A stretch of DNA of 64,000 nucleotides, taken from assembly GCA_016192145.1 (NCBI GenBank), contig JACPUT010000011.1, forward strand, positions 124,001-188,000, written 5' to 3'. The translations under genes and the position numbers were made by a program. Shown here one piece after another: positions 10,158 to 24,306 of the stretch. Under the pieces are notes generated by a model. The model made no database searches. It was given only the letters and a program-made list of their open reading frames with translations, and was not told the DNA's origin. Source of the stretch: Acidobacteriota bacterium. Lineage in GTDB: Bacteria > Acidobacteriota > Holophagae > Holophagales > Holophagaceae. The stretch's first letter is position 1. Each line of letters starts with the position of its first letter.

Positions 10158-11486
10158 GTGTTCCGGTGTTCCTTCATCTCCCCCAGCCCCCTAGATAACG
10201 ACGCCCAACGATCGGCGCTGTTGACCGGGCTTTCCAGGGATCCGGACGTGGAGGTGAACACCCAGCGGGTGGTCGCCGACGTGCTGGCGAATGTGCGGGC
10301 CCACGGCCTCGAAGCGGTGTTGGAAGCGACCCGTCGCTATGACGGCCTCTCCCTGGATGCGAACGCCCTGCGGGTACCGACTCAGGCCATGGCCGAAGCC
10401 CTCGCCCGAATGGAATCCGAGCGCCCGGCCCTGGTACCCGCGCTGAAGAACCTCATTGCCGGAGTGCGCCGCTTCGCCAGGGCCCAGCGCCAGAGCCTGC
10501 AAGACCTCACCCTGCCGCTCACCCACGGCGGCACCGTGGGCGAACGGTGGGTGCCCCTCCGGTCCATGGGGGTCTACGTCCCCGGAGGCCGGGCCTTTTA
10601 CCCCTCCACCTTCGCCATGACGGTGATCCCCGCCCAGGAAGCGGGGGTGCGCCGCATCGTCGCCCTGACACCGCCCCGGCCCGAGGGCGTGGATCCCCTG
10701 GTCCTCGCCACGGCGGCATTGCTGGGAGTCGACGAACTGCTCACCCTGGGGGGAGCCCAAGCCGTGGCCTGGATGGCCTTTGGCGAAGGGGTCGACCTCA
10801 TCGCGGGCCCCGGCAACCGCTTCGTGGCCGAAGCCAAGCGCCAGCTGGTGGGCACCGTGGGCATCGATAGCGTGGCGGGCCCCACGGAGCTGCTCATCCT
10901 CGCCGACGCCAGCGCCGATCCAGCCTGGCTCGCGGAGGATCTGCTCGCTCAAGCCGAGCACGATCCCGACGCCGCCGCCGTGTTGGTGAGCGCCGACGCG
11001 AATCTCCTCCAGGCCGTGGCCTTCGAACTGCGGATGCGCGCCGAGGCCTCCCCACGCCGGGCCATCCTTGAGCAAAGCCTTTCCCGTTTCGGTCGCCTCG
11101 TGCAGGCGGACCGCGCCCAGGCCACCGCCTTTGCCCAGGCCTGGGCGCCCGAGCACCTCCAGCTCTGCGTGGCGGATCCCGAGGCCTGGCTGCCGGAACT
11201 GACCACCGCCGCGGCCGTGTTCCTGGGTTCCGCCAGCGCGGAAGCCTTCGGCGACTACGGCCTCGGCCCCAATCACGTGTTGCCCACCCTCCGCAGCGCG
11301 CGGTTTGCCTCGCCCCTGGGCGTGGCCACCTGCATGAAGCGCCAGAGCGTGCTCCGCCTCTCCGCCGTCGATGCCGCCGCCGCCGCCCCCTGGGTCGCCG
11401 AGCTGGCCACCGCCGAAGGTCTGCATCACCATGGCGCGAGCGCCCAGCTCCGCGCCCATGCCCATTCCCCCGCCGCCGGCGCCTGA
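10158..11486 (+). CDS. hisD: Histidinol dehydrogenase
   Basis: HisD performs the last two oxidations, histidinol to histidine, using NAD+ and zinc. The 442-residue length is normal. Zinc and active-site segments are present: GVYVPGGRAFYPST, GGAQAVAW, AGPGNRFVAEAKRQL, AQAEHDPDA, AWAPEHLQL and GDYGLGPNHVLPT. The GTG at 10158 lacks a good ribosome site. It gives the usual distance of about 33 residues to the conserved TQRVVADVLANVRAHG helix, so I keep it. It is first in the his operon, and the hisC-HAD gene follows 72 nt later. Confidence 0.95.
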   Translation: MFRCSFISPSPLDNDAQRSALLTGLSRDPDVEVNTQRVVADVLANVRAHGLEAVLEATRRYDGLSLDANALRVPTQAMAEALARMESERPALVPALKNLIAGVRRFARAQRQSLQDLTLPLTHGGTVGERWVPLRSMGVYVPGGRAFYPSTFAMTVIPAQEAGVRRIVALTPPRPEGVDPLVLATAALLGVDELLTLGGAQAVAWMAFGEGVDLIAGPGNRFVAEAKRQLVGTVGIDSVAGPTELLILADASADPAWLAEDLLAQAEHDPDAAAVLVSADANLLQAVAFELRMRAEASPRRAILEQSLSRFGRLVQADRAQATAFAQAWAPEHLQLCVADPEAWLPELTTAAAVFLGSASAEAFGDYGLGPNHVLPTLRSARFASPLGVATCMKRQSVLRLSAVDAAAAAPWVAELATAEGLHHHGASAQLRAHAHSPAAGA

Positions 11487-11558
11487 CCCCACCCACCCCC
11501 CGGCGGACCCGCTTCTTGGACTTCCCAAGGAGCCGCCGATCCATTGTTCTGGATACCC

Positions 11559-13310
11559 ATGAGCTTCCTTCGCCCCGACCTCGCCAGCCTGCCCCCCTAC
11601 ACCCGGCCTCCCGAAGCCGAGGGCGGCGTTCGCCTGCACCTCAACGAGGCACCCGAGGATTGGCCCGCCGACGCCAAAGCCGCCCTCCTGGCGCGCCTCG
11701 CGGACCTGCCTTTCAACCAGTACCCCGAGCGGCAGGCCGAGCTCTCCGATCGCCTGGCCCGCCGCCTGGGTGCGCCCGAGGGCTCCGTGCTCCTCGGCCC
11801 AAGCAGCGGCAGCCTTCTGGATCTCATCGCCCTGGCGAGCCTCCGAGCCGGGGATGCCGTCGCCATTCCCGATCCCGGCTTCAGCCTCTACCCCATCCTC
11901 ATCAAGCGGCACCAGGGCCGCGTCCACCGCGTGCCCGTGGGCACCGGCTTTCCCATGGCGCCCTGGTTCGACACCCTCCACTGCCGCCAGATCTGGCTCA
12001 CGCTGCCCAACAATCCCACCGGCGCCTGGCTACCGCCGGAAGACCTCCTGCCTTTCATGGACGCCTCTGCTGCCCAAACGGAGCCACCCCTCGTGGTGCT
12101 GGATGAGGCCTATGCTGAGTTCGCGCCGCGCACCCACCGCCTGCTGGTGGACCGCTATCCCAACCTGCTCCTGCTGCGCACCTGCTCCAAGGCCCTCGCC
12201 AGCGCCGCCTGGCGCCTGGGCTACCTGCTCGGGGATCCCGCGCTGGTGGCCCGCCTCGCCACCCTGCAGCTGCCCTACAGCGTGCCCGCCCCCAGCCTCG
12301 AAGCCCTCGACGTGGCGCTGGACTTCGCCCCGGCCTTCGACCGCCGCATCCGCGACCTTTCCGATCGCCGGGATCGCCTCGCCGCCCAACTCCCCGGCCG
12401 GAACGTCGCGCCCAGCCAAGCCAACTTCCTCCACATCTCACCGAATCCCAGCGCGGCCCTCGCCGCCGCGGAGCTGAAGGTGCGCCAGCTCCCGGGCACG
12501 GGCGCCGCCCGGGTGGGTGTGGGCACCGAGCCCGCGGCGCAAGCCGTGGCCCAGGTCTTGGGGGGCGCACTGCCCCTCCCGACACCCAGAGCCCCGCGCC
12601 GCCTCCTCGTCCTCGACATCGATGGCGTGATGATTGACGCGGACCGCAGCTTTGCCGAAGCCGTGGCCCGGTCCCTCGCCAAGCTGCGCCCGGCCCTGCC
12701 CTGGTCCGATGAGACCTTCCGCGCCTTCAAGCGCGTGGGCGGATTCAACAACGACTTCCGCCTAACCGCCGGAGCCCTAGCCCTGTGTGAAGTCCATGGC
12801 GACCGCGATCTGTTGCCCCTTCTCATCTCCGCCGAAGGCCGGGGCTTCCCGGAACTGGAACCGCGCATGGCGGCCCTGGAGCCCGAAGCCCAGCGCGCGG
12901 TGCAGGCGGAGTACGTCGACACGGTGAAACTCGAACGCCCCCTCATCTCCCTCCCGGAGTTGGAAGCCACGGGCCGCGACCTCGCCATCCTCACGGGCCG
13001 CCCGCCGGAGGAGCTGGATCTCGCCTGGCAAGTGCTCGGCTTCCGCCTCACCGCCGTCTGCGACTCCGCCCCCCACCTCCGCAAGCCCGAGCCCGCCGGC
13101 TTGCTGCAGTTGGCCGAGGCCTTCCGGGCCGAGGAGGTGCTCTTCGTGGGGGACACCCGCGACGATGCCAAGGCCCTCAGCGCCGCCCGGGAGATCCGCC
13201 CGGACCTCCGCTGGTCCTTCGCCGCCCTGGGCCCCGACCGCGAGCGCTTCGCGGAGCCCGGCGACCTCGTGTTCTCCACCCTGCGAGACCTGTTGAAGGA
13301 ACTCCCATGA
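11559..13310 (+). CDS. hisC: Histidinol-phosphate aminotransferase fused to a HAD-family phosphatase
   Basis: This is a 583-residue two-domain protein. Residues 1-340 are a fold-type I PLP aminotransferase of the HisC kind: LHLNEAPEDWP substrate loop, LTLPNNPTG, LDEAYAEF and the PLP lysine in RTCSKALASAAWRLGY near residue 211. Residues 345-583 are a complete HAD hydrolase: motif I LVLDIDGVMID near 351, motif II ILTGRP near 478, motif III Lys in LRKPEP and motif IV VGDTRDDAKAL near 531. HisC makes histidinol phosphate. A phosphatase must remove the phosphate before HisD, and none of the known forms (HisB-N, HisJ or HisN type) is present here, so the fused HAD domain is the natural candidate (inference). 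The ATG at 11559 has GGA 5 nt upstream. The stop overlaps hisB (ATGA). Confidence 0.9.
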   Translation: MSFLRPDLASLPPYTRPPEAEGGVRLHLNEAPEDWPADAKAALLARLADLPFNQYPERQAELSDRLARRLGAPEGSVLLGPSSGSLLDLIALASLRAGDAVAIPDPGFSLYPILIKRHQGRVHRVPVGTGFPMAPWFDTLHCRQIWLTLPNNPTGAWLPPEDLLPFMDASAAQTEPPLVVLDEAYAEFAPRTHRLLVDRYPNLLLLRTCSKALASAAWRLGYLLGDPALVARLATLQLPYSVPAPSLEALDVALDFAPAFDRRIRDLSDRRDRLAAQLPGRNVAPSQANFLHISPNPSAALAAAELKVRQLPGTGAARVGVGTEPAAQAVAQVLGGALPLPTPRAPRRLLVLDIDGVMIDADRSFAEAVARSLAKLRPALPWSDETFRAFKRVGGFNNDFRLTAGALALCEVHGDRDLLPLLISAEGRGFPELEPRMAALEPEAQRAVQAEYVDTVKLERPLISLPELEATGRDLAILTGRPPEELDLAWQVLGFRLTAVCDSAPHLRKPEPAGLLQLAEAFRAEEVLFVGDTRDDAKALSAAREIRPDLRWSFAALGPDRERFAEPGDLVFSTLRDLLKELP

Positions 13311-13891
13311 GAACGGCCACCCTGCACCGCGCCACCGCCGAGACCGACATCCGCCTGAGCCTCAGTTTGGAGGGCGGCGACAGCTCCATCCGCACGGGCC
13401 TCGCCTTCTTCGACCACATGCTGCACCAGCTGACCAAACACGGCGGCTTCGGCCTCCAGGTTGAAGCCAGAGGCGATCTCCCCGTGGACAGCCACCACCT
13501 CATCGAGGACGTGGGCCTCACCCTCGGCGACGCCCTGCGCGAGGCCCTGGGCGATCGCCGCGGCATCGCCCGCTGGGGCGAGGCCCATGTGCCCATGGAC
13601 GAAACCCTGGCCCGCGTCGTGGTGGACCTCTCCGGCCGCCCCTACACCGTCTTCCAGGCCAAGCTCCCCAGCCTCGTCCTCGGCGATGGTTTCCAGACCG
13701 AGATGGTGCGCGAATTCTTCATCGCCCTCGCCACCCGAGCCCAGATGAACCTCCATGCCTCCATCCTCTACGGCGAGAACACCCACCACCAGATCGAAGC
13801 CCTCTTCAAAGGCCTCGCCCGCGCCCTCCAGGCCGCCGTACGCCTGGAAGGCGACGCCCTCCCGAGCACCAAGGGCACGCTTACCAACTGA
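13307..13891 (+). CDS. hisB: Imidazoleglycerol-phosphate dehydratase
   Basis: HisB converts imidazoleglycerol phosphate to imidazoleacetol phosphate. The 194-residue protein is the dehydratase alone, without the N-terminal phosphatase of the enterobacterial bifunctional HisB. The manganese-binding motifs FFDHMLHQL, DSHHLIED and YGENTHHQIEALFK are intact. The start ATG overlaps the preceding stop by 4 nt, so translation is coupled to hisC-HAD. A 167-nt gap holding a large inverted repeat separates it from hisH, the only sizeable break between hisC and hisG. Confidence 0.96.
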   Translation: MRTATLHRATAETDIRLSLSLEGGDSSIRTGLAFFDHMLHQLTKHGGFGLQVEARGDLPVDSHHLIEDVGLTLGDALREALGDRRGIARWGEAHVPMDETLARVVVDLSGRPYTVFQAKLPSLVLGDGFQTEMVREFFIALATRAQMNLHASILYGENTHHQIEALFKGLARALQAAVRLEGDALPSTKGTLTN

Positions 13892-13913
13892 TAGCCCGAC
13901 CCACCCCCACCTG

Positions 13914-14030
13914 GGATCGCGAATGACGCGAATGGGGCGAATAGGCGCGAATGGAAAGCCCATCAGCCCACCCACCATCCCTGATTGTTTTTATTCGCGT
14001 CATTCGCTCAATTCGCGCAATTCGCGATCC
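13914..14030. repeat. Periodic-arm inverted repeat (9-nt units), copy in his operon
   Basis: The left arm 13914-13952 consists of four CGCGAAT-type units spaced by 2-3 nt. The right arm 13993-14030 is its near reverse complement, with four ATTCGCG-type units. The spacer is about 40 nt. The unit period is 9. It lies between hisB and hisH on the sense side of the operon and shares its unit sequence with the copy at 51877-51946. The rest of the 13892-14058 gap has no gene. Confidence 0.9.
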
Positions 14031-14058
14031 TCCTTTCCTCCCACCCGGACCCCACCTC

Positions 14059-14688
14059 ATGATCACGATCCTCGACTACGGCGCCGGCAACCTCGCTTCC
14101 CTGGAAGGCGCCCTCGACCGCCTGGGATTCCAGCACCAGCGGGCGGAGCGACCCGATGAGATCGCAGACAAGGGCGCGCTCATCCTGCCCGGCGTGGGCC
14201 ACTTCGAAGCGGCCCAGAAGGCCCTGAGGGCCCGGGGCTGGTGGTCCACCCTGCCCCACTTCGTGGCGGAGGGGCGGCCCTTGTTGGGCATCTGCCTGGG
14301 CTTGCAGCTGCTCGCCGAAGGGAGCGAGGAAGCGCCCCGCGCCAGCGGGCTCGGCCTGCTGCCCGGTCTGGTGCGCCGCCTCGGACCGGGCGTGAAGGTT
14401 CCGCACATGGGCTGGAGCCAGGTGCGGTCCACCTATGCCCACGCCGGCGTGCCGGACCTCAAGGATCCCTGGCTCTACTTCGTCCACAGCTACGCGCTGG
14501 ACGTGGGCCCCGAGACCCTGGGCATCGCCGCCCATGGCCGCCCCTTCACCGCCATCACGGCCCGGGGCCGCGTCCTCGGTTTCCAGCCCCATCCGGAGAA
14601 GAGCGGCCCCGCAGGCCTTCGGCTCCTGAGATCCGCCCTCGCCTGGATGGGCGAGACCACCCCGAACGACCTCGGAACGATCCAATGA
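14059..14688 (+). CDS. hisH: Imidazole glycerol phosphate synthase, glutaminase subunit
   Basis: HisH hydrolyses glutamine and channels ammonia to HisF. The 209-residue class I amidotransferase starts MITILDYGAGNLASL. It has the nucleophile Cys in LLGICLGLQLLAEGSEE and the catalytic His and Glu in FQPHPEKSG. The start at 14059 is chosen because the family begins here; 36 upstream codons of the open frame cover the inverted repeat. The stop overlaps hisA as ATGA. Partner hisF is two genes downstream. Confidence 0.96.
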   Translation: MITILDYGAGNLASLEGALDRLGFQHQRAERPDEIADKGALILPGVGHFEAAQKALRARGWWSTLPHFVAEGRPLLGICLGLQLLAEGSEEAPRASGLGLLPGLVRRLGPGVKVPHMGWSQVRSTYAHAGVPDLKDPWLYFVHSYALDVGPETLGIAAHGRPFTAITARGRVLGFQPHPEKSGPAGLRLLRSALAWMGETTPNDLGTIQ

Positions 14689-15401
14689 TCCAGCTCATCC
14701 CCTCCATGGACCTGCTCGGCGGCCGCATCGTGCGCCTGCGGCACGGGAACCGGAACCAAGTGACCTTCTACGACCTCGAGCCCGCGGCCTGGGTGGAGCG
14801 GCTCGTGGAGGCCGGAGCCACCCGCATCCACCTCGTGGATCTGGATGGGGCCTTCGGCGAATCCCGCCAAGCCCAAGCCTTTGCTTCCTTTCCTCAACGA
14901 TTCCCCACCGTGCGCTTCCAGCTGGGCGGTGGCCTGCGCAGTCGGGCCCTCATCCAGGAAGTGCTGGGCCTCGGCTTCGACGCGGTGGTGGGCACCCTCG
15001 CCGCCGAGCGCCCCAAGGAGCTGGTGGGCCTGGATCCCGCGCGGGTCGTCGCCGCCCTGGATCTCAAGGGCCGGCAGGTGGTCACCCGGGGCTGGACCGC
15101 CGAGAGCGAATGCGAATCCACGGATGTCTTCGAATCCCTGCTCACCTTCGGCTTCATACGCGCCCTCGTCACGGACGTCCAGCGCGACGGCACGATGGAG
15201 GGCCCCGGCCTCGAAGCCTTGGCCTTCGTGGCCCGCGAAGGATTCCAGGTGCAGGCCAGCGGTGGCTTCCGGGATCTGTCCGACCTGCCCGGCCTCGCGG
15301 CGATCCCCAACGTGGTGGGCGCCATCAGCGGCAAGGCTCTGCTCGACGGCCGAATGGAATTGGATGACCCGGCCGTGCGCACCGCCTTGGGAGGTGCCTG
15401 A
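14685..15401 (+). CDS. hisA: ProFAR isomerase (HisA)
   Basis: HisA is a TIM-barrel Amadori isomerase that opens the ribose of ProFAR to give PRFAR. The 238-residue protein has the N-terminal catalytic Asp in IPSMDLLGGRIVRL and the second in LVTDVQRDGTMEGP. The phosphate-binding loops QLGGGLRS and QASGGFRDLSD are also visible. MIQLIPSMD begins at ATG 14685, overlapping the hisH stop. The end overlaps hisF as TGATG. A PriA-type dual HisA/TrpF is possible in principle but nothing supports it. Confidence 0.94.
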   Translation: MIQLIPSMDLLGGRIVRLRHGNRNQVTFYDLEPAAWVERLVEAGATRIHLVDLDGAFGESRQAQAFASFPQRFPTVRFQLGGGLRSRALIQEVLGLGFDAVVGTLAAERPKELVGLDPARVVAALDLKGRQVVTRGWTAESECESTDVFESLLTFGFIRALVTDVQRDGTMEGPGLEALAFVAREGFQVQASGGFRDLSDLPGLAAIPNVVGAISGKALLDGRMELDDPAVRTALGGA

Positions 15402-16159
15402 TGCCCGCCAAGCGCGTGATCCCCTGCCTGGATGTGAAGGATGGCCGCGTGGTGAAGGGCGTCCAGTTCAAGGAGCTGCGCGACCTCGGCAGCCCCGTGG
15501 AGCTGGCCGCCCGCTACGACGAGGCCGGCGCCGATGAGCTCGTGTTTCTGGATATCGCCGCCACCCAGGAATACCGGGGCACCCAGGAAGCCTGGGTGCG
15601 GGAGGTGGCCCGCACCCTCTCCATCCCCTTCACCGTGGGCGGGGGCGTGCGATCGGTAGAGGATGTGCGGCGGTTGCTCCGAGCCGGTGCTGACAAGGTG
15701 GCCATCAACAGCGCGGCCCTGGAACGCCCCGAGCTGATCTGGGAGGCCGCCGAGATCTTCGGCCGTCAGTGTGTGGTGCTGGCCGTGGACGTGGCCCGGG
15801 ATCCCGACCTTGGCTGGCGCGTGTTCAGCCATGGCGGCAAGCGGCCCACCAACCGTTCCGCCGCCGAGTGGCTCACCTGCGCCGCCACGGAGCTGGGGGC
15901 CGGAGAGATCCTCCTCACCTCCATCGACCGCGATGGCACCTTGGCGGGGTTCGATCTGGAGCTGCTGGATCAGATGGCCAGCCTGCCCGTGCCCGTCATC
16001 GCCAGCGGCGGCGCCGGCTCCCTCCAGCACTTCGCCGACGCCCTCACCCACGGCGCCGATGCCGTGCTCGCCGCCACGCTCTTCCACGAAGGCACCATCC
16101 TCATCCCCGACCTCAAGACCTTCCTCGCCGAATCCGGCTTTGAGGTGCGCCCATGCTGA
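15401..16159 (+). CDS. hisF: Imidazole glycerol phosphate synthase, cyclase subunit
   Basis: HisF is the TIM-barrel half of IGP synthase. It uses ammonia from HisH to form IGP and AICAR. The 252-residue protein has catalytic Asp residues in RVIPCLDVKDGRVVKGVQF and LTSIDRDGTLAGFDLELL. Its phosphate sites are FTVGGGVRSVEDVRRLL and IASGGAG. The length is typical. It overlaps hisA by 1 nt and hisIE by 7 nt. Confidence 0.96.
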   Translation: MPAKRVIPCLDVKDGRVVKGVQFKELRDLGSPVELAARYDEAGADELVFLDIAATQEYRGTQEAWVREVARTLSIPFTVGGGVRSVEDVRRLLRAGADKVAINSAALERPELIWEAAEIFGRQCVVLAVDVARDPDLGWRVFSHGGKRPTNRSAAEWLTCAATELGAGEILLTSIDRDGTLAGFDLELLDQMASLPVPVIASGGAGSLQHFADALTHGADAVLAATLFHEGTILIPDLKTFLAESGFEVRPC

Positions 16160-16797
16160 ACCCCGACGAACTCCTCTTCGATGCCCAGGGCCTCATCCCC
16201 GGCATCGTACAGGCGCCCTCCGGCGAGGTGCGCATGCTGGGCTGGCTCAACCGTGAATCGCTGCAACTCACGACCCGATCGGGCTACGTCACCTTCTGGA
16301 GCCGGTCCCGGCAATCGCTGTGGATCAAGGGTGAAACCAGTGGCAATCGCCTGAAGGTGGTGTCCATCGAAGCCGACTGCGATGGCGACACGCTGCTCAT
16401 CACCGCGGAGCCCGAAGGCCCCACCTGCCACCGCGGCACCGCCACCTGCTTCGGAGAGGGCCGCAGCGAAGGGATCCCCTTCCTGGGGGAGCTGGAGCGC
16501 ATCCTCCACGCTCGCCGCACGGAGGCGAAGCTGGACGGCAGCTACACCCAGAAGCTCTTCGCCCAGGGCCTCGACCGCATCGCCAAGAAGGTGGTGGAAG
16601 AGGCGGGTGAGGTGGTGCTCGCCGCCAAGAACTGCACGCCTGAACATGCGGCGGCTCGTGAGGAGTTCCTGGGAGAAGCCGCCGACCTGCTCTTCCACCT
16701 GCAGATGCTCCTGCTGGATCGTGGCTGCACCCTCGCCGACGTGACCGCCGTATTGGCCCGCCGCCACTCGGAACGCACCTCCACGCCCTCCGCCTGA
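16153..16797 (+). CDS. hisI: Bifunctional PR-AMP cyclohydrolase/PR-ATP pyrophosphatase
   Basis: This is a HisIE fusion for steps two and three of histidine synthesis. Residues 1-110 are the HisI cyclohydrolase with the zinc and magnesium motifs SRQSLWIKGETSGN, EADCDGDTLL and GPTCHRGTATCF. Residues 115-205 are the HisE pyrophosphohydrolase, a MazG-like helical domain with KKVVEEAGEVVLAA and EAADLLFHLQMLL. The 214-residue length fits HisIE. The start lies inside the hisF end. Confidence 0.96.
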   Translation: MLNPDELLFDAQGLIPGIVQAPSGEVRMLGWLNRESLQLTTRSGYVTFWSRSRQSLWIKGETSGNRLKVVSIEADCDGDTLLITAEPEGPTCHRGTATCFGEGRSEGIPFLGELERILHARRTEAKLDGSYTQKLFAQGLDRIAKKVVEEAGEVVLAAKNCTPEHAAAREEFLGEAADLLFHLQMLLLDRGCTLADVTAVLARRHSERTSTPSA

Positions 16798-16804
16798 GCC
16801 CGCC

Positions 16805-17782
16805 ATGCCCACCCACACGCCCCACTTCCCCGATCTCCTCTTCACGCCCGCCACGCGCCTCCGCGCCTGGGAGACGGCCCTCATGGACCTGCTCCGGGCC
16901 GAGGGCTATCGGGAGCTGCACCCCTCCCTCATCCTCCGGGAGCCGTTGGAGGACGGCAGCGTCGCCACGCCCTACGTGCAGTTCTTCGATGGGCCCGAGC
17001 GGGTGGCCCTGCGCAGCGACTTCACCCTGAGCCTCGCGCGGCTGCTCGCCTCCCGCTTCACGGAGCCGCCTCCGCGCATCTGCTACGCCGGGGCCGTGTT
17101 CCGCCGCCCGACCCAGCCCTGGGAGGCAGTGGAGCGCTTCGAAGTGGGGTGCGAACGCCTGCACCTGGACCGCGCGGACGATGCCGACCTCGAACTGGCG
17201 CGCCTCCTCATGGCGGTGCCGGGTGTCCTCGGCTTGAAGGGCGGCCTCCTGCAGCTGGGTCACGCGGCGCTGCTGCGCAAGCCCCTGGAAGCCGAAGGTG
17301 TCTCGCCCGCCCTCAAGGCGGCGGTGGTCTCCGCCATGAGCCGCCGCGCGCCGCACCGATTGAAGGAGGCCCTCAAGGGCCACCGGGCCGAAGCCGCCTT
17401 GAGCTTGCACGCCGAGCTGCTGTTGGCGGACCTGGATGGCGCCGCCAGTCTGGCCCCCCTCACCCGCAGTCCCTATGCGGGCCTGCTGGAGGAGGAATTG
17501 GCGGAACTCCACCGCGCCGCCAAGGCCCTCACGCCCCTGCTGCCGGAGGGCCTCACCCTGCGCATCGATCCGGCGGATGTGGAAGGTCTCGACTTCTACA
17601 CGGGCCCCACCCTGCGCCTCTGGACCGAAGGCGCCCAAGCGGAACTGGCCAGTGGCGGCCGCTACGACCGCCTCTACCCCGACCTGGGCCGCCCCTGGCG
17701 CGCCGCCGGATTCTGCGTGCGCCTCTCGCGGCTGCTGGACCTCGCCGACACGCGCCCCGACCTCTTCACGGAGCTACCATGA
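16805..17782 (+). CDS. hisZ: ATP phosphoribosyltransferase regulatory subunit
   Basis: HisZ is a catalytically dead histidyl-tRNA synthetase paralogue that pairs with short HisG and gives it histidine feedback control. The 325-residue protein keeps the class II synthetase core (YVQFFDGPERVALRSDFTLSLARL and GLDFYTGPTLRLW). It lacks the full tRNA-binding C-terminal domain of HisS. The ATG at 16805 is 7 nt after hisIE. Its stop overlaps the start of hisG (ATGA), fitting stoichiometric synthesis of the HisZ-HisG complex. Confidence 0.92.
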   Translation: MPTHTPHFPDLLFTPATRLRAWETALMDLLRAEGYRELHPSLILREPLEDGSVATPYVQFFDGPERVALRSDFTLSLARLLASRFTEPPPRICYAGAVFRRPTQPWEAVERFEVGCERLHLDRADDADLELARLLMAVPGVLGLKGGLLQLGHAALLRKPLEAEGVSPALKAAVVSAMSRRAPHRLKEALKGHRAEAALSLHAELLLADLDGAASLAPLTRSPYAGLLEEELAELHRAAKALTPLLPEGLTLRIDPADVEGLDFYTGPTLRLWTEGAQAELASGGRYDRLYPDLGRPWRAAGFCVRLSRLLDLADTRPDLFTELP

Positions 17783-18423
17783 GCCCCTTGCTGATCGCCC
17801 TGCCCAAGGGCCGCATCGGGGACGAGTTGGTCCCGCGCCTGCGGGGCACCGCCCTGGCCCTGGATGAAGCCGCCCTCAAATCCCGCATCCTGCACATCCC
17901 CACGGCCACGCCCGGCGTGGAGGCGCTGCTCCTCAAGGGCGCCGACCTGCCCCGCTACGTGGCCGCCGGCGTGGCGGCTCTGGGGGTGGTGGGTTCCGAC
18001 ACCCTCGACGAGCTGGACGTGGACCTGCTGGAGCTGGCAGACCTGGCCTTCGGTGCCTGCCGCCTCGCGCTCTGCGCGCCCCGGGGCACCACGCTGGAAG
18101 CCCTCACTTCGAAGACCCATCTGCGCCTCGCCACCAAGTACACCCGCGCCACGGAAGCCTGGCTTCAGCGCGAAGGGTTCGTGGCGGAGCTCGTTCCCCT
18201 CCAAAGCAGCGTGGAGCTGGCCCCCCTGTTGGGCCTGGCGGATGCCATCGTGGACCTCGTGCAGACGGGCTCCACCCTCCAAGCCCACGATCTGGTGGAG
18301 GTGGCCACCCTGGGTCACGCCTCCGCCCGCCTCGTCGCCTCCCGAGCGGCCTTCCTTGCGGACCCTGCCCGTGTGCGGCCCCTGGCCCGCGTGCTGGAGG
18401 AAGCCCTGGGCGAACAGGCATAG
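17779..18423 (+). CDS. hisG: ATP phosphoribosyltransferase, short form
   Basis: HisG joins ATP and PRPP in the first committed step of the pathway. The 214-residue length is the short form without the C-terminal regulatory domain, consistent with the adjacent hisZ. Family segments are visible: LLIALPKGRIGDEL, AGVAALGVVGSDTLDEL, LRLATKYTRATEAWL and the PRPP loop DAIVDLVQTGSTLQAHDL. It is last in the operon. Its stop codon lies inside the left arm of the heptad inverted repeat. Confidence 0.95.
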   Translation: MSPLLIALPKGRIGDELVPRLRGTALALDEAALKSRILHIPTATPGVEALLLKGADLPRYVAAGVAALGVVGSDTLDELDVDLLELADLAFGACRLALCAPRGTTLEALTSKTHLRLATKYTRATEAWLQREGFVAELVPLQSSVELAPLLGLADAIVDLVQTGSTLQAHDLVEVATLGHASARLVASRAAFLADPARVRPLARVLEEALGEQA

Positions 18424-20913: not shown

Positions 20914-23900
20914 ATGAAGATCGCCCGTCACTTCACCCAGGCCGGACAAGATCCCCTGAAGGGGATCACCTTCGTTCCCCGCACCAGCCGCATCACCAAG
21001 CTGGACGGGAAGGTGGTCTTCGAGGCCAAGGACGTGATGGTGCCGGATTCCTGGTCCCAGGTGGCGGTCGACATCCTGGCCCAGAAGTACTTCCGTCGGA
21101 AGGGCATCGACGCCCAGAACGGCGGTGAGACCGACTCCCGCCAGGTCTTCCACCGCCTCGCCGGCTGCTGGCGCCACTGGGGTGAGACCAACGGCTACTT
21201 CGATTCCGCGGAAGATGCCCAGGCCTTCTACGACGAGCTCACCTACATGCTCGCGAAGCAGATGTGCGCCCCCAACAGCCCGCAGTGGTTCAACACGGGC
21301 CTGCACTACGCCTACGGAATCTCCGGCCCCGCCCAGGGCCACTCCTACGTGGACCACCGCACCGGCGAGCTGGCCAAGTCCACCTCGGCCTATGAGCGGC
21401 CCCAGCCCCACGCCTGCTTCATCCAGAGCGTGGCCGACGACCTCGTGAACGAGGGCGGCATCATGGACCTGTGGACCCGCGAGGCCCGCATCTTCAAGTA
21501 CGGCTCCGGCACCGGCTCAAACTTCTCCAAGATCCGCGGCTCCGAGGAGCCCCTCTCCGGCGGCGGCAAGAGCTCCGGCCTCATGTCCTTCCTGGCCGTG
21601 GGCGACAAGGCCGCCGGCGCCATCAAGTCGGGCGGCACCACCCGCCGCGCCGCCAAGATGGTCACCCTGGATCTGGACCACCCCGACATCGAGACCTTCG
21701 TGGATTGGAAGGTCCTCGAGGAGCGCAAAGTGGCCATGCTGGCCGCGGGCAGCCTGATCATCAAGAAGCACTGGGATGAGCTCTGCAAGGCGGTGGAAGG
21801 CTCCACTTCCAAGGATGCGAACCCCAAGACCAACGAGGCCCTGAAGAAGGCCCTGGCCAAGGCCAAGCGCGAGGGCGTTCCCAGCGCCTTCCTCGCCCAG
21901 TGCATGGGCCGCCTCGCCGAGGGCGACTTCGCCCGCGACCTCGCCGGTTACGACACCAGCTGGGACGGCGAAGGCTACATGACCGTCGGCGGCATGAACT
22001 CCAACAACTCCGTGCGCGTGCCCGACGCCTTCATGCGCGCCCTGGAGAAGGATGGCGACTGGGAGCTGATCCGTCGCGTGGATGGCAAGGCCTGCAAGAA
22101 GCTCCGCGCCCGGGATCTCTGGCACAAGGTGAACTACGCCGCCTGGGCCTGCGCCGACCCCGGCCTCCAGTTCGACACCACCATCAACGATTGGCACACC
22201 TGCCCCGCCGATGGCCGCATCAACGCGAGCAACCCCTGCTCCGAATACATGTTCCTGGATGACACCGCCTGCAACCTGGCGTCCCTGAACCTGTGCACCT
22301 TCCTCACCGCCGATGGCGGCTTCGATCTCGAGGGCTACCGGCACGGCATCCGCCTCTGGACCATCGTCCTCGAGATCAGCGTGCTCATGGCCCAGTTCCC
22401 CAGCGAGTCCATCGCCAAGCTGAGCTACGAGTTCCGCACCCTGGGCCTCGGCTACGCCAACCTGGGCGCCATGCTCATGCGAATGGGCATCCCCTACGAC
22501 AGCCTCGAGGGCACCCAGTGGTGCGCCACCCTCACGGCCATCCTCACGGGCGACGCCTACGCCGCCTCGGCCGAGATGGCCCGCGAGCAGGGCCCCTTCC
22601 CCGGCTACAAGAAGAACGCGGACAGCATGCTCCGCGTGATCCGCAACCACCGCCGCGCCGCCTACAACGCGCCGGCCGCCGAGTACGAGCAGCTCTCCGT
22701 GGTGCCCCAGGGCCTCACCGGCGTGGGCGTGCCCAAGCGCATCGTCGAGGCCGCCCGCGAGAGCTGGGATACGGCCCTCACCTACGGCGAGGCCTGGGGC
22801 TATCGCAACGCCCAGACCACCGTCCTCGCCCCCACGGGCACCATCGGCCTGCTGATGGATTGCGACACCACCGGCGTCGAGCCCGACTTCGCCCTCGTGA
22901 AGTTCAAGAAGCTCGCCGGCGGCGGCTACTTCAAGCTCGTGAACTCCGCCATCCCCGAGGCCCTGATGCGGCAGGGCTACACGCCCACCCAGATCAAGGA
23001 CATCGAGCGCCATGTGGTGGGTTGGCTCGAGATCACCGACGAGACCCCCGGCATCTCCCGCGCCATGCTGCTGGAGAACGGCTGGACGGCCGAGGAGATC
23101 GCCTCCATCAACGCCCAGCTCCCCACGGCCTTCGACCCCTCCTTCGTGGTGGATCAGGAGCGCCTGAAGAAGCACTTCGTGCAGGACCGCATCGACACCT
23201 TCATGGCCGCCCTCACGGGCACCATGACCGTGGAAGGCGCCCCCCACCTCCGCGAGGAGCACCTGGCCATCTTCGACTGCGCCAACAAGTGCGGCCGCAC
23301 GGGCCAGCGCTTCATCGCCGCCATGGGCCACCTGCGCATGATGGGCGCCGCCCAGCCCTTCCTCTCCGGCGCCATCTCCAAGACCATCAACCTCCCCGTG
23401 GAGAGCACGGTCGAGGACATCGCGAAGATCTACGAGACCTCCTGGCAGCTGATGCTCAAGGCCGTGGCCCTCTACCGCGACGGTTCCAAGATGAGCCAGG
23501 CCATGGCCACCAACCTGGACCTCCTGGAGGGCATCGACACCCTCACGGATGAAGCCGCCACCCACGCCGAGAAGACCCCCGTCGTGGCCCAGGCCATGGC
23601 TCAGCAGTTGGTGCGCACCTACCGCCGTCGCCTGCCCAACCGCCGCGGTGGCTACACGCAAAGCGCCACCATCGGAGGCACCAAGCTCTACCTCCGCACC
23701 GGCGAGTACGAGGATGGGGCCCTCGGAGAAATCTTCATCGACATCCACAAGGAGGGCGCCGCCTTCCGCAGCCTCCTCAACTGCTTCGCCATCGCGGTGA
23801 GCATGGGCCTCCAGCACGGCGTGCCCCTCGAGGAATACTGCGAGGCCTTCCTCTTCACCCGCTTCGAGCCCAACGGCATGGTCATGGGCAGCGACACCAT

Positions 23901-24306
23901 CAAGCTGTCCACCTCCATCATCGACTTCATCTTCCGCGAGCTGTCCATCAGCTATCTGGGCCGCTACGACCTGGCCCACGTGGATGCCGAGCAGCTGATG
24001 CAGAACCAGCAGACCAAGCCCCAGAGCGCCGTGGCGAGCTTCGCTCCCACGGCCGGCACCCAGCCCCTGCCCTTCCCCACCATGGGCGATGATGCGAGCG
24101 CCTCCACCCCTTCCACGCCCGCTCCCGCGATGGCCATGGCCGCCGTCGGCGCTCCCGCCGGTGCCACCAAGTACGCCGCCGCCCAATCCGCCCGCGAGAA
24201 GGGCTACACCGGGGATCCCTGCCCCGAGTGCGGCCACCTCACCCTCGTGCGCAACGGCGCCTGCATGAAGTGCCAGACCTGCGGCGCGACGACGGGATGC
24301 AGTTAG
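20914..24306 (+). CDS. nrdJ: Adenosylcobalamin-dependent ribonucleotide reductase (class II)
   Basis: NrdJ reduces ribonucleotides to deoxyribonucleotides with a B12-generated thiyl radical and needs no oxygen. The 1130-residue protein has [13 protein letters not shown] and the [15 protein letters not shown] region with the radical-redox Cys. [22 protein letters not shown], the [25 protein letters not shown] loop and the [20 protein letters not shown] motif follow. The C-terminus is a long Ala/Pro-rich tether ending in [21 protein letters not shown], a zinc-ribbon-like redox tail that also holds the terminal Cys residues. ATG 20914 follows GAGG. Control by NrdR is suggested by the upstream boxes. 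Confidence 0.95.

Follow-up and report, generated by a model that had tools for sequence, protein, structure and literature searches.

Of all the steps in GapMind's survey of amino-acid biosynthesis, the one most often predicted with low confidence was histidinol-phosphate phosphatase, in 42 of 148 organisms; for Synechococcus elongatus it is listed among the novel gaps (PMC7311316). Among proteins of the HAD type, this activity is known for HisB-N and for an enzyme from Thermococcus (PMC5516325), and PA0335 of Pseudomonas was reported to have it in work cited by PMC11535334. In Haloferax volcanii an insertion in HVO_0431, which encodes a HAD protein, led to histidine auxotrophy (PMC4300041), and the protein was proposed as the missing histidinol-phosphatase (PMC8305020). 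For HisB-N, the Thermococcus enzyme and, as far as the citing source goes, PA0335, a fusion to HisC was described nowhere in the literature found, and the papers on histidine gene fusions that were examined make no mention of a HisC-HAD fusion.

In the present study such a fusion was analyzed in an Acidobacteriota bacterium of the Holophagaceae. The window, by which we mean the whole analyzed stretch of 64,000 nucleotides (contig JACPUT010000011.1, positions 124,001 to 188,000), contains a HAD domain which, like E. coli HisB-N with its histidinol-phosphate phosphatase activity, probably belongs to a bifunctional his protein (PMC5516325, PMC1963479). However, HisB-N is a DDDD phosphatase of subfamily HAD-IIIA fused to imidazoleglycerol-phosphate (IGP) dehydratase (HisB, step 6), whereas the HAD half of the window belongs to another subfamily and is joined to HisC (step 7). 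The first-pass annotation had already set this fusion apart from the enterobacterial one, and the distinction holds for subfamily and partner as well as for the hisB gene of the window, which lacks the N-terminal domain; models of HisB-N (TIGR01261, TIGR01656) gave no match to the HAD half at E<=0.001. The best solved structure by sequence and fold was the Tt82 phosphatase of Thermococcus thioreducens (PDB 6IAH), the cap motif of which (GSFGDDF) resembles that of the window, although Tt82 is a stand-alone archaeal protein with 24% identity and a TM-score of 0.64.

The fused gene and its place in the histidine operon

The fused gene (11559-13310, + strand) is an uninterrupted reading frame of 583 codons, running from an ATG at 11559 to a TGA ending at 13310 with no internal stop; a TTG 15 bases upstream of the ATG is an alternative start, with which the protein would comprise 588 amino acids. 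An assembly or frameshift artefact was ruled out by the identical fused architecture in 22 further genomes of the same family. The HisC half (residues 1-337, 11559..12569, +) was matched over residues ~1-338 by TIGR01141 (E 6.8e-53) and PF00155, and TIGR01141 was its best model by a wide margin, but at 179.8 bits the curated cut-off of 276.55 was not reached, so that a diverged HisC may be assumed. Membership in HisC is indicated by the PLP lysine K211 (12189-12191, +), which is invariant in an alignment of 27 fused homologues, by D182, Y185, R219, N289 and R318, which are invariant or nearly so in the 27 proteins, and by the position in a his operon.

The HAD half (residues 346-583, 12594..13307, +) was matched over residues ~348-543 by PF00702 and TIGR01548 (E 3.2e-15) and is assigned to subfamily IA of the HAD superfamily, the one with a C1 cap. 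All its catalytic residues are invariant in the 27 fused homologues, namely D353 and D355 of motif I (D353-x-D355, 12615..12623), T479 of motif II (TGRP, 12993..12995), K509 of motif III (RKPEP, 13083..13085), and D532 and D536 of motif IV (GDTRDD, 13149..13166), all on the + strand. In the AlphaFold2 model of this domain alone (pLDDT 92.7), motifs I and II are separated by a helical cap, and the matching PDB entries are HAD-IA phosphatases. A cap signature, GGFNNDF (residues 394-400, 12738..12758, +), is characteristic of the HAD group of the window and reads GGxN[N/D]DW in relatives (alignments A1 and A3). The full-length model comprises two confident domains, and residues 338-345 (12570..12593, +), its sole segment with pLDDT < 50, are regarded as the interdomain linker. 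The reading frame, the profile matches and the motif residues bear out the earlier description of a 583-residue gene joining HisC to a HAD domain with four catalytic motifs.

The operon runs head to tail on the + strand from 10158 to 18423 in the order hisD-[hisC-HAD]-hisB-H-A-F-IE-Z-G, with several overlaps of starts and stops, among them that of the stop of the fused gene with the start of hisB (ATGA). It opens with hisD (10158..11486; TIGR00069, E 5e-122), encoding histidinol dehydrogenase, which acts in the step after the phosphatase. The fused gene is followed by hisB (13307..13891), assigned by profile search to imidazoleglycerol-phosphate dehydratase only, without a HisB-N domain, then by hisH (14059..14688; TIGR01855), hisA (14685..15401; TIGR00007, E 4.5e-47, under the model cut-off), hisF (15401..16159; TIGR00735), hisIE (16153..16797; NF002747), hisZ for the regulatory subunit of ATP phosphoribosyltransferase (16805..17782; TIGR00443, E 1e-41, under the cut-off) and a short form of hisG (17779..18423; TIGR00070). 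With hisD through hisG adjacent, the claim that the operon holds every other histidine step and no HisB-N, HisJ or HisN was confirmed: histidinol-phosphate phosphatase is the only pathway step without a gene in the operon, with the HAD half as the one domain left over. Elsewhere in the window, a frame of 1130 amino acids (20914-24306) reads as an adenosylcobalamin-dependent ribonucleotide reductase, as recognized from its sequence only.

With its two domains, the fused protein would catalyze two successive reactions of histidine synthesis. Its HisC half is predicted to convert imidazole-acetol phosphate to L-histidinol phosphate by transamination, and the C1-capped HAD half would then hydrolyze this product to L-histidinol, the substrate of HisD, presumably via an aspartyl-phosphate intermediate on D353 with D355 as general acid/base and Mg2+ held with the participation of D532 and D536. 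The substrate range of a HAD enzyme is not readable from its sequence; the substrate and the direction of flow we infer, and any advantage of the fusion, such as a fixed ratio of the two activities or a local hand-over, likewise.

Relatives of the HAD half within and beyond the phylum

TIGR01548 (HAD-SF-IA-hyp1, a hypothetical equivalog) is the top NCBIfam match of the window HAD and was matched over its full length, as in the members of alignment A3 (35/35). Both share an S-[FY] after motif I, the N-N-D-[WF] cap signature and the HAD motifs. The window HAD, at 56-60 bits, falls far short of the cut-off of TIGR01548 (140.2 bits), which weighs against the phosphatase assignment; relatives with the same place in the operon score up to 129 bits, and a tree of HAD domains placed it in a common clade with TIGR01548 proteins over the cut-off, apart from PGP-like HADs. 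Judged by its sequence, it is related to TIGR01548 but diverged. In the cyanobacterial phylum to which G298 belongs, 59 genomes were sampled and 19 encode proteins over the cut-off (L141-L159). They have about 260-300 residues and the signature WNNDW, and, unlike the window HAD, they stand alone, his genes being absent within ~1.5 kb of them. HVO_0431, which may be a member of TIGR01548, is stand-alone and archaeal, unlike the fusion of the window. In plasmid records no HisC-HAD fusion reached 80% coverage of the query, and haloarchaeal plasmid matches were weak HADs only.

When 84,980 species genomes were scanned with an alignment of three sequences as query, 80 loci were obtained, 43 of which (L055-L097) are clear relatives of the window HAD; most of the genomes are MAGs. 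The HAD gene adjoins his genes in 39 of the 43 and is fused to hisC in 37, a share that is biased upward, since one of the two search patterns ([PM][KDQ]ALLFD-like) sits at the fusion junction and favours fused members. The pairing of HisC and HAD occurs in at least ten phyla of bacteria and archaea. Fused groups include KSB1, Melainabacteria, Woesearchaeota, Acidobacteriota and Elusimicrobiota as well as Gemmatimonadota, Planctomycetota, Actinomycetota, Myxococcota and one MAG titled Rhodobacterales. The commonest operon form is hisG-[hisC-HAD]-hisB-hisH-hisF-hisA/IE-hisD with no other phosphatase gene, and the hisB genes seen beside the surveyed fusions are of the short, monofunctional kind. 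PGP-like HADs without the signature, found in the same scan, are almost never next to his genes. At one contig end (L097 1944-3489), hisG is directly followed by a HAD of the window type with no hisC between them. In two Planctomycetota loci (L113, L123) HisC is fused to a HAD with weak similarity to the window group (31-39 bits), possibly another fusion lineage.

Within the phylum 297 genomes were surveyed. In the family of the window (f1) the HAD half was present in 25 of 26 other sampled genomes, the exception being a genome of 1.2 Mb without hisD. A second family, f5, has adjoining but unfused genes for HisC, the HAD and HisB, in the order hisD-hisC-HAD-hisB-hisH-hisA; inside the his operons of two further genomes hisC and HAD are unfused neighbours (G264) or fused (G190). 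The HAD tree split the window group from the PGP-like outgroup (support 100), joined the family of the window to the unfused f5 genes (99) and nested the cyanobacterial proteins over the TIGR01548 cut-off among his-linked HADs, although its internal order is weakly supported, and it is, like the HisC tree, a quick tree with long branches. The HisC tree placed the window's family with the likewise unfused f5 (87) and G264 (96), apart from most other fused HisCs. As both trees group the family of the window with unfused relatives, apart from most other fusions, they suggest more than one event of fusion, or of splitting.

Candidates for the phosphatase step

Because the same pairing with HisC recurs in his clusters of at least ten phyla, the HAD is probably the phosphatase so often missing. 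This recurrence in otherwise complete his operons supports, and goes well beyond, the argument of the first-pass annotation, which had regarded the HAD half as the best candidate for the missing step. Most likely, with a probability of about 0.77, the HAD half dephosphorylates the histidinol phosphate made by the HisC half. The annotation had also proposed a search of the genome for other histidinol-phosphate phosphatases. This search yielded no HisJ: among PHP proteins, represented by a frame of 1248 amino acids taken as DnaE and a nucleoside-bisphosphatase-like protein, the best score on the HisJ model was 19 bits against a cut-off of 90. No HisN over the cut-off of TIGR02067 (275.15 bits) was found either, the two IMPase-like proteins scoring 170 and 145 bits; one is closest to inositol monophosphatase and the other (L004) closest to HisN. 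The sole protein of the HisB-N family is GmhB-like (L135, C10:41655-42209), its zinc-loop cysteines presumably replaced (SPHHEKGQGHYAVADHADRKP; L135 1384-2019, G000:C10), and similar proteins occur in his-less relatives. These two IMPase-like proteins and the GmhB-like protein could moonlight; the distribution of orthologues among relatives indicates that L004 and L135 do not track the his pathway.

HisN enzymes of the IMPase type are established, for instance in Corynebacterium (PMC5516325), and TIGR02067 is the best NCBIfam model of the IMPase-like L004 (gene on contig C18; 144.7 bits, E 3e-42), which might therefore be the histidinol-phosphate phosphatase, with the HAD half doing something else. 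This is unlikely, as the score lies far under the HisN cut-off, which no IMPase in 56 comparison genomes passed, and as the other tested relatives with the fusion and the his pathway yielded no close orthologue; each has one IMPase, ~39% identical and also present in genomes without hisD and hisB. A further survey covered 36 genomes, 35 with fused HisC-HAD and a Chloroflexi genome (L101) with the genes side by side, and in none of the 36 was a HisJ over its cut-off or an IMPase over the HisN cut-off detected. Five fusion-bearing genomes (G298, G299, G301, G304, G310) had no match to the IMPase family at all.

The HAD half could instead be a housekeeping or damage-control phosphatase for another substrate, or a broad range of substrates, rather than a histidine enzyme. 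All members of the group also resemble phosphoglycolate phosphatases, and the HAD is kept in relatives without hisD and hisB: two members of the same family, G284 and G292, have an intact stand-alone HAD (L036 3464-4195; L037 7499-8359), which in G284 comes after and overlaps a folE-like gene, and G006 has a HisC-HAD fusion (L042 5381-7096). The neighbours of the latter, read from the sequence, look like acetolactate synthase, dihydroxy-acid dehydratase and an isopropylmalate/citramalate-synthase-like protein. This retention counts against an exclusive histidine role. Four f5 genomes (G002, G018, G032, G058), in addition to the HAD gene between hisC and hisB, encode a PHP protein of the HisJ family (96-102 bits against 90.2). 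Together these cases would allow for a second substrate, or for a role that has changed in certain lineages. As an account of the whole group, however, a housekeeping role is improbable, for it leaves unexplained the recurrent fusion to HisC and the operon linkage in at least ten phyla, and his genes are hardly ever neighbours of the PGP-like HADs from the genome scan.

A relative of the same family, G097, bears on the two halves separately (L053 1258-7476; L035 6987-8285). Its his operon is of another type, encoding a long HisG, a separate HisC, HisB, HisF, HisA-IE and HisD but no phosphatase, while the old HisC-HAD fusion survives next to lpxC. The HisC half of this fusion has decayed, with none of the 12 key residues kept and 21% identity to the window HisC, whereas the HAD half has kept 10 of 10 and is 63% identical; in an ordinary relative (G150), identity to the window is 65% for the HisC half and 60% for the HAD half. 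On the simplest reading, the new operon supplied a HisC but no phosphatase.

That the GmhB-like HAD-IIIA phosphatase L135 is bifunctional and carries out the histidinol-phosphate step is improbable: although it scores over the cut-off of TIGR01656 (140.6 vs 84) and a GmhB hypothesis has been discussed for some bacteria (PMC8305728), its best NCBIfam match is heptose-bisphosphate phosphatase, and its conservation in G174 and G292, two genomes of the family devoid of hisD and hisB, with only a weak match in G284 (E 7e-4), fits a job outside histidine synthesis.

Significance for histidine biosynthesis

The activity itself is known already. Here it would belong to a subgroup of HADs for which the literature found holds no experimental tie to histidinol-phosphate phosphatase, and to a fusion with HisC that is not described there. 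We consider it slightly better than an even chance that the HADs of an extended TIGR01548 are a further, widespread family of histidinol-phosphate phosphatases, joined to HisC time and again in bacteria and archaea but encoded by separate genes in cyanobacteria, perhaps also in haloarchaea, which would fill much of the commonest predicted gap in amino-acid biosynthesis. The stand-alone cyanobacterial proteins are candidates for the HisN gap of that phylum, and the HAD group repeatedly fused to HisC provides one sequence-defined candidate for many of the phosphatase gaps in GapMind. If this holds true, many supposed histidine auxotrophs would become prototrophs, and TIGR01548, so far a 'hypothetical' family, would gain a function.
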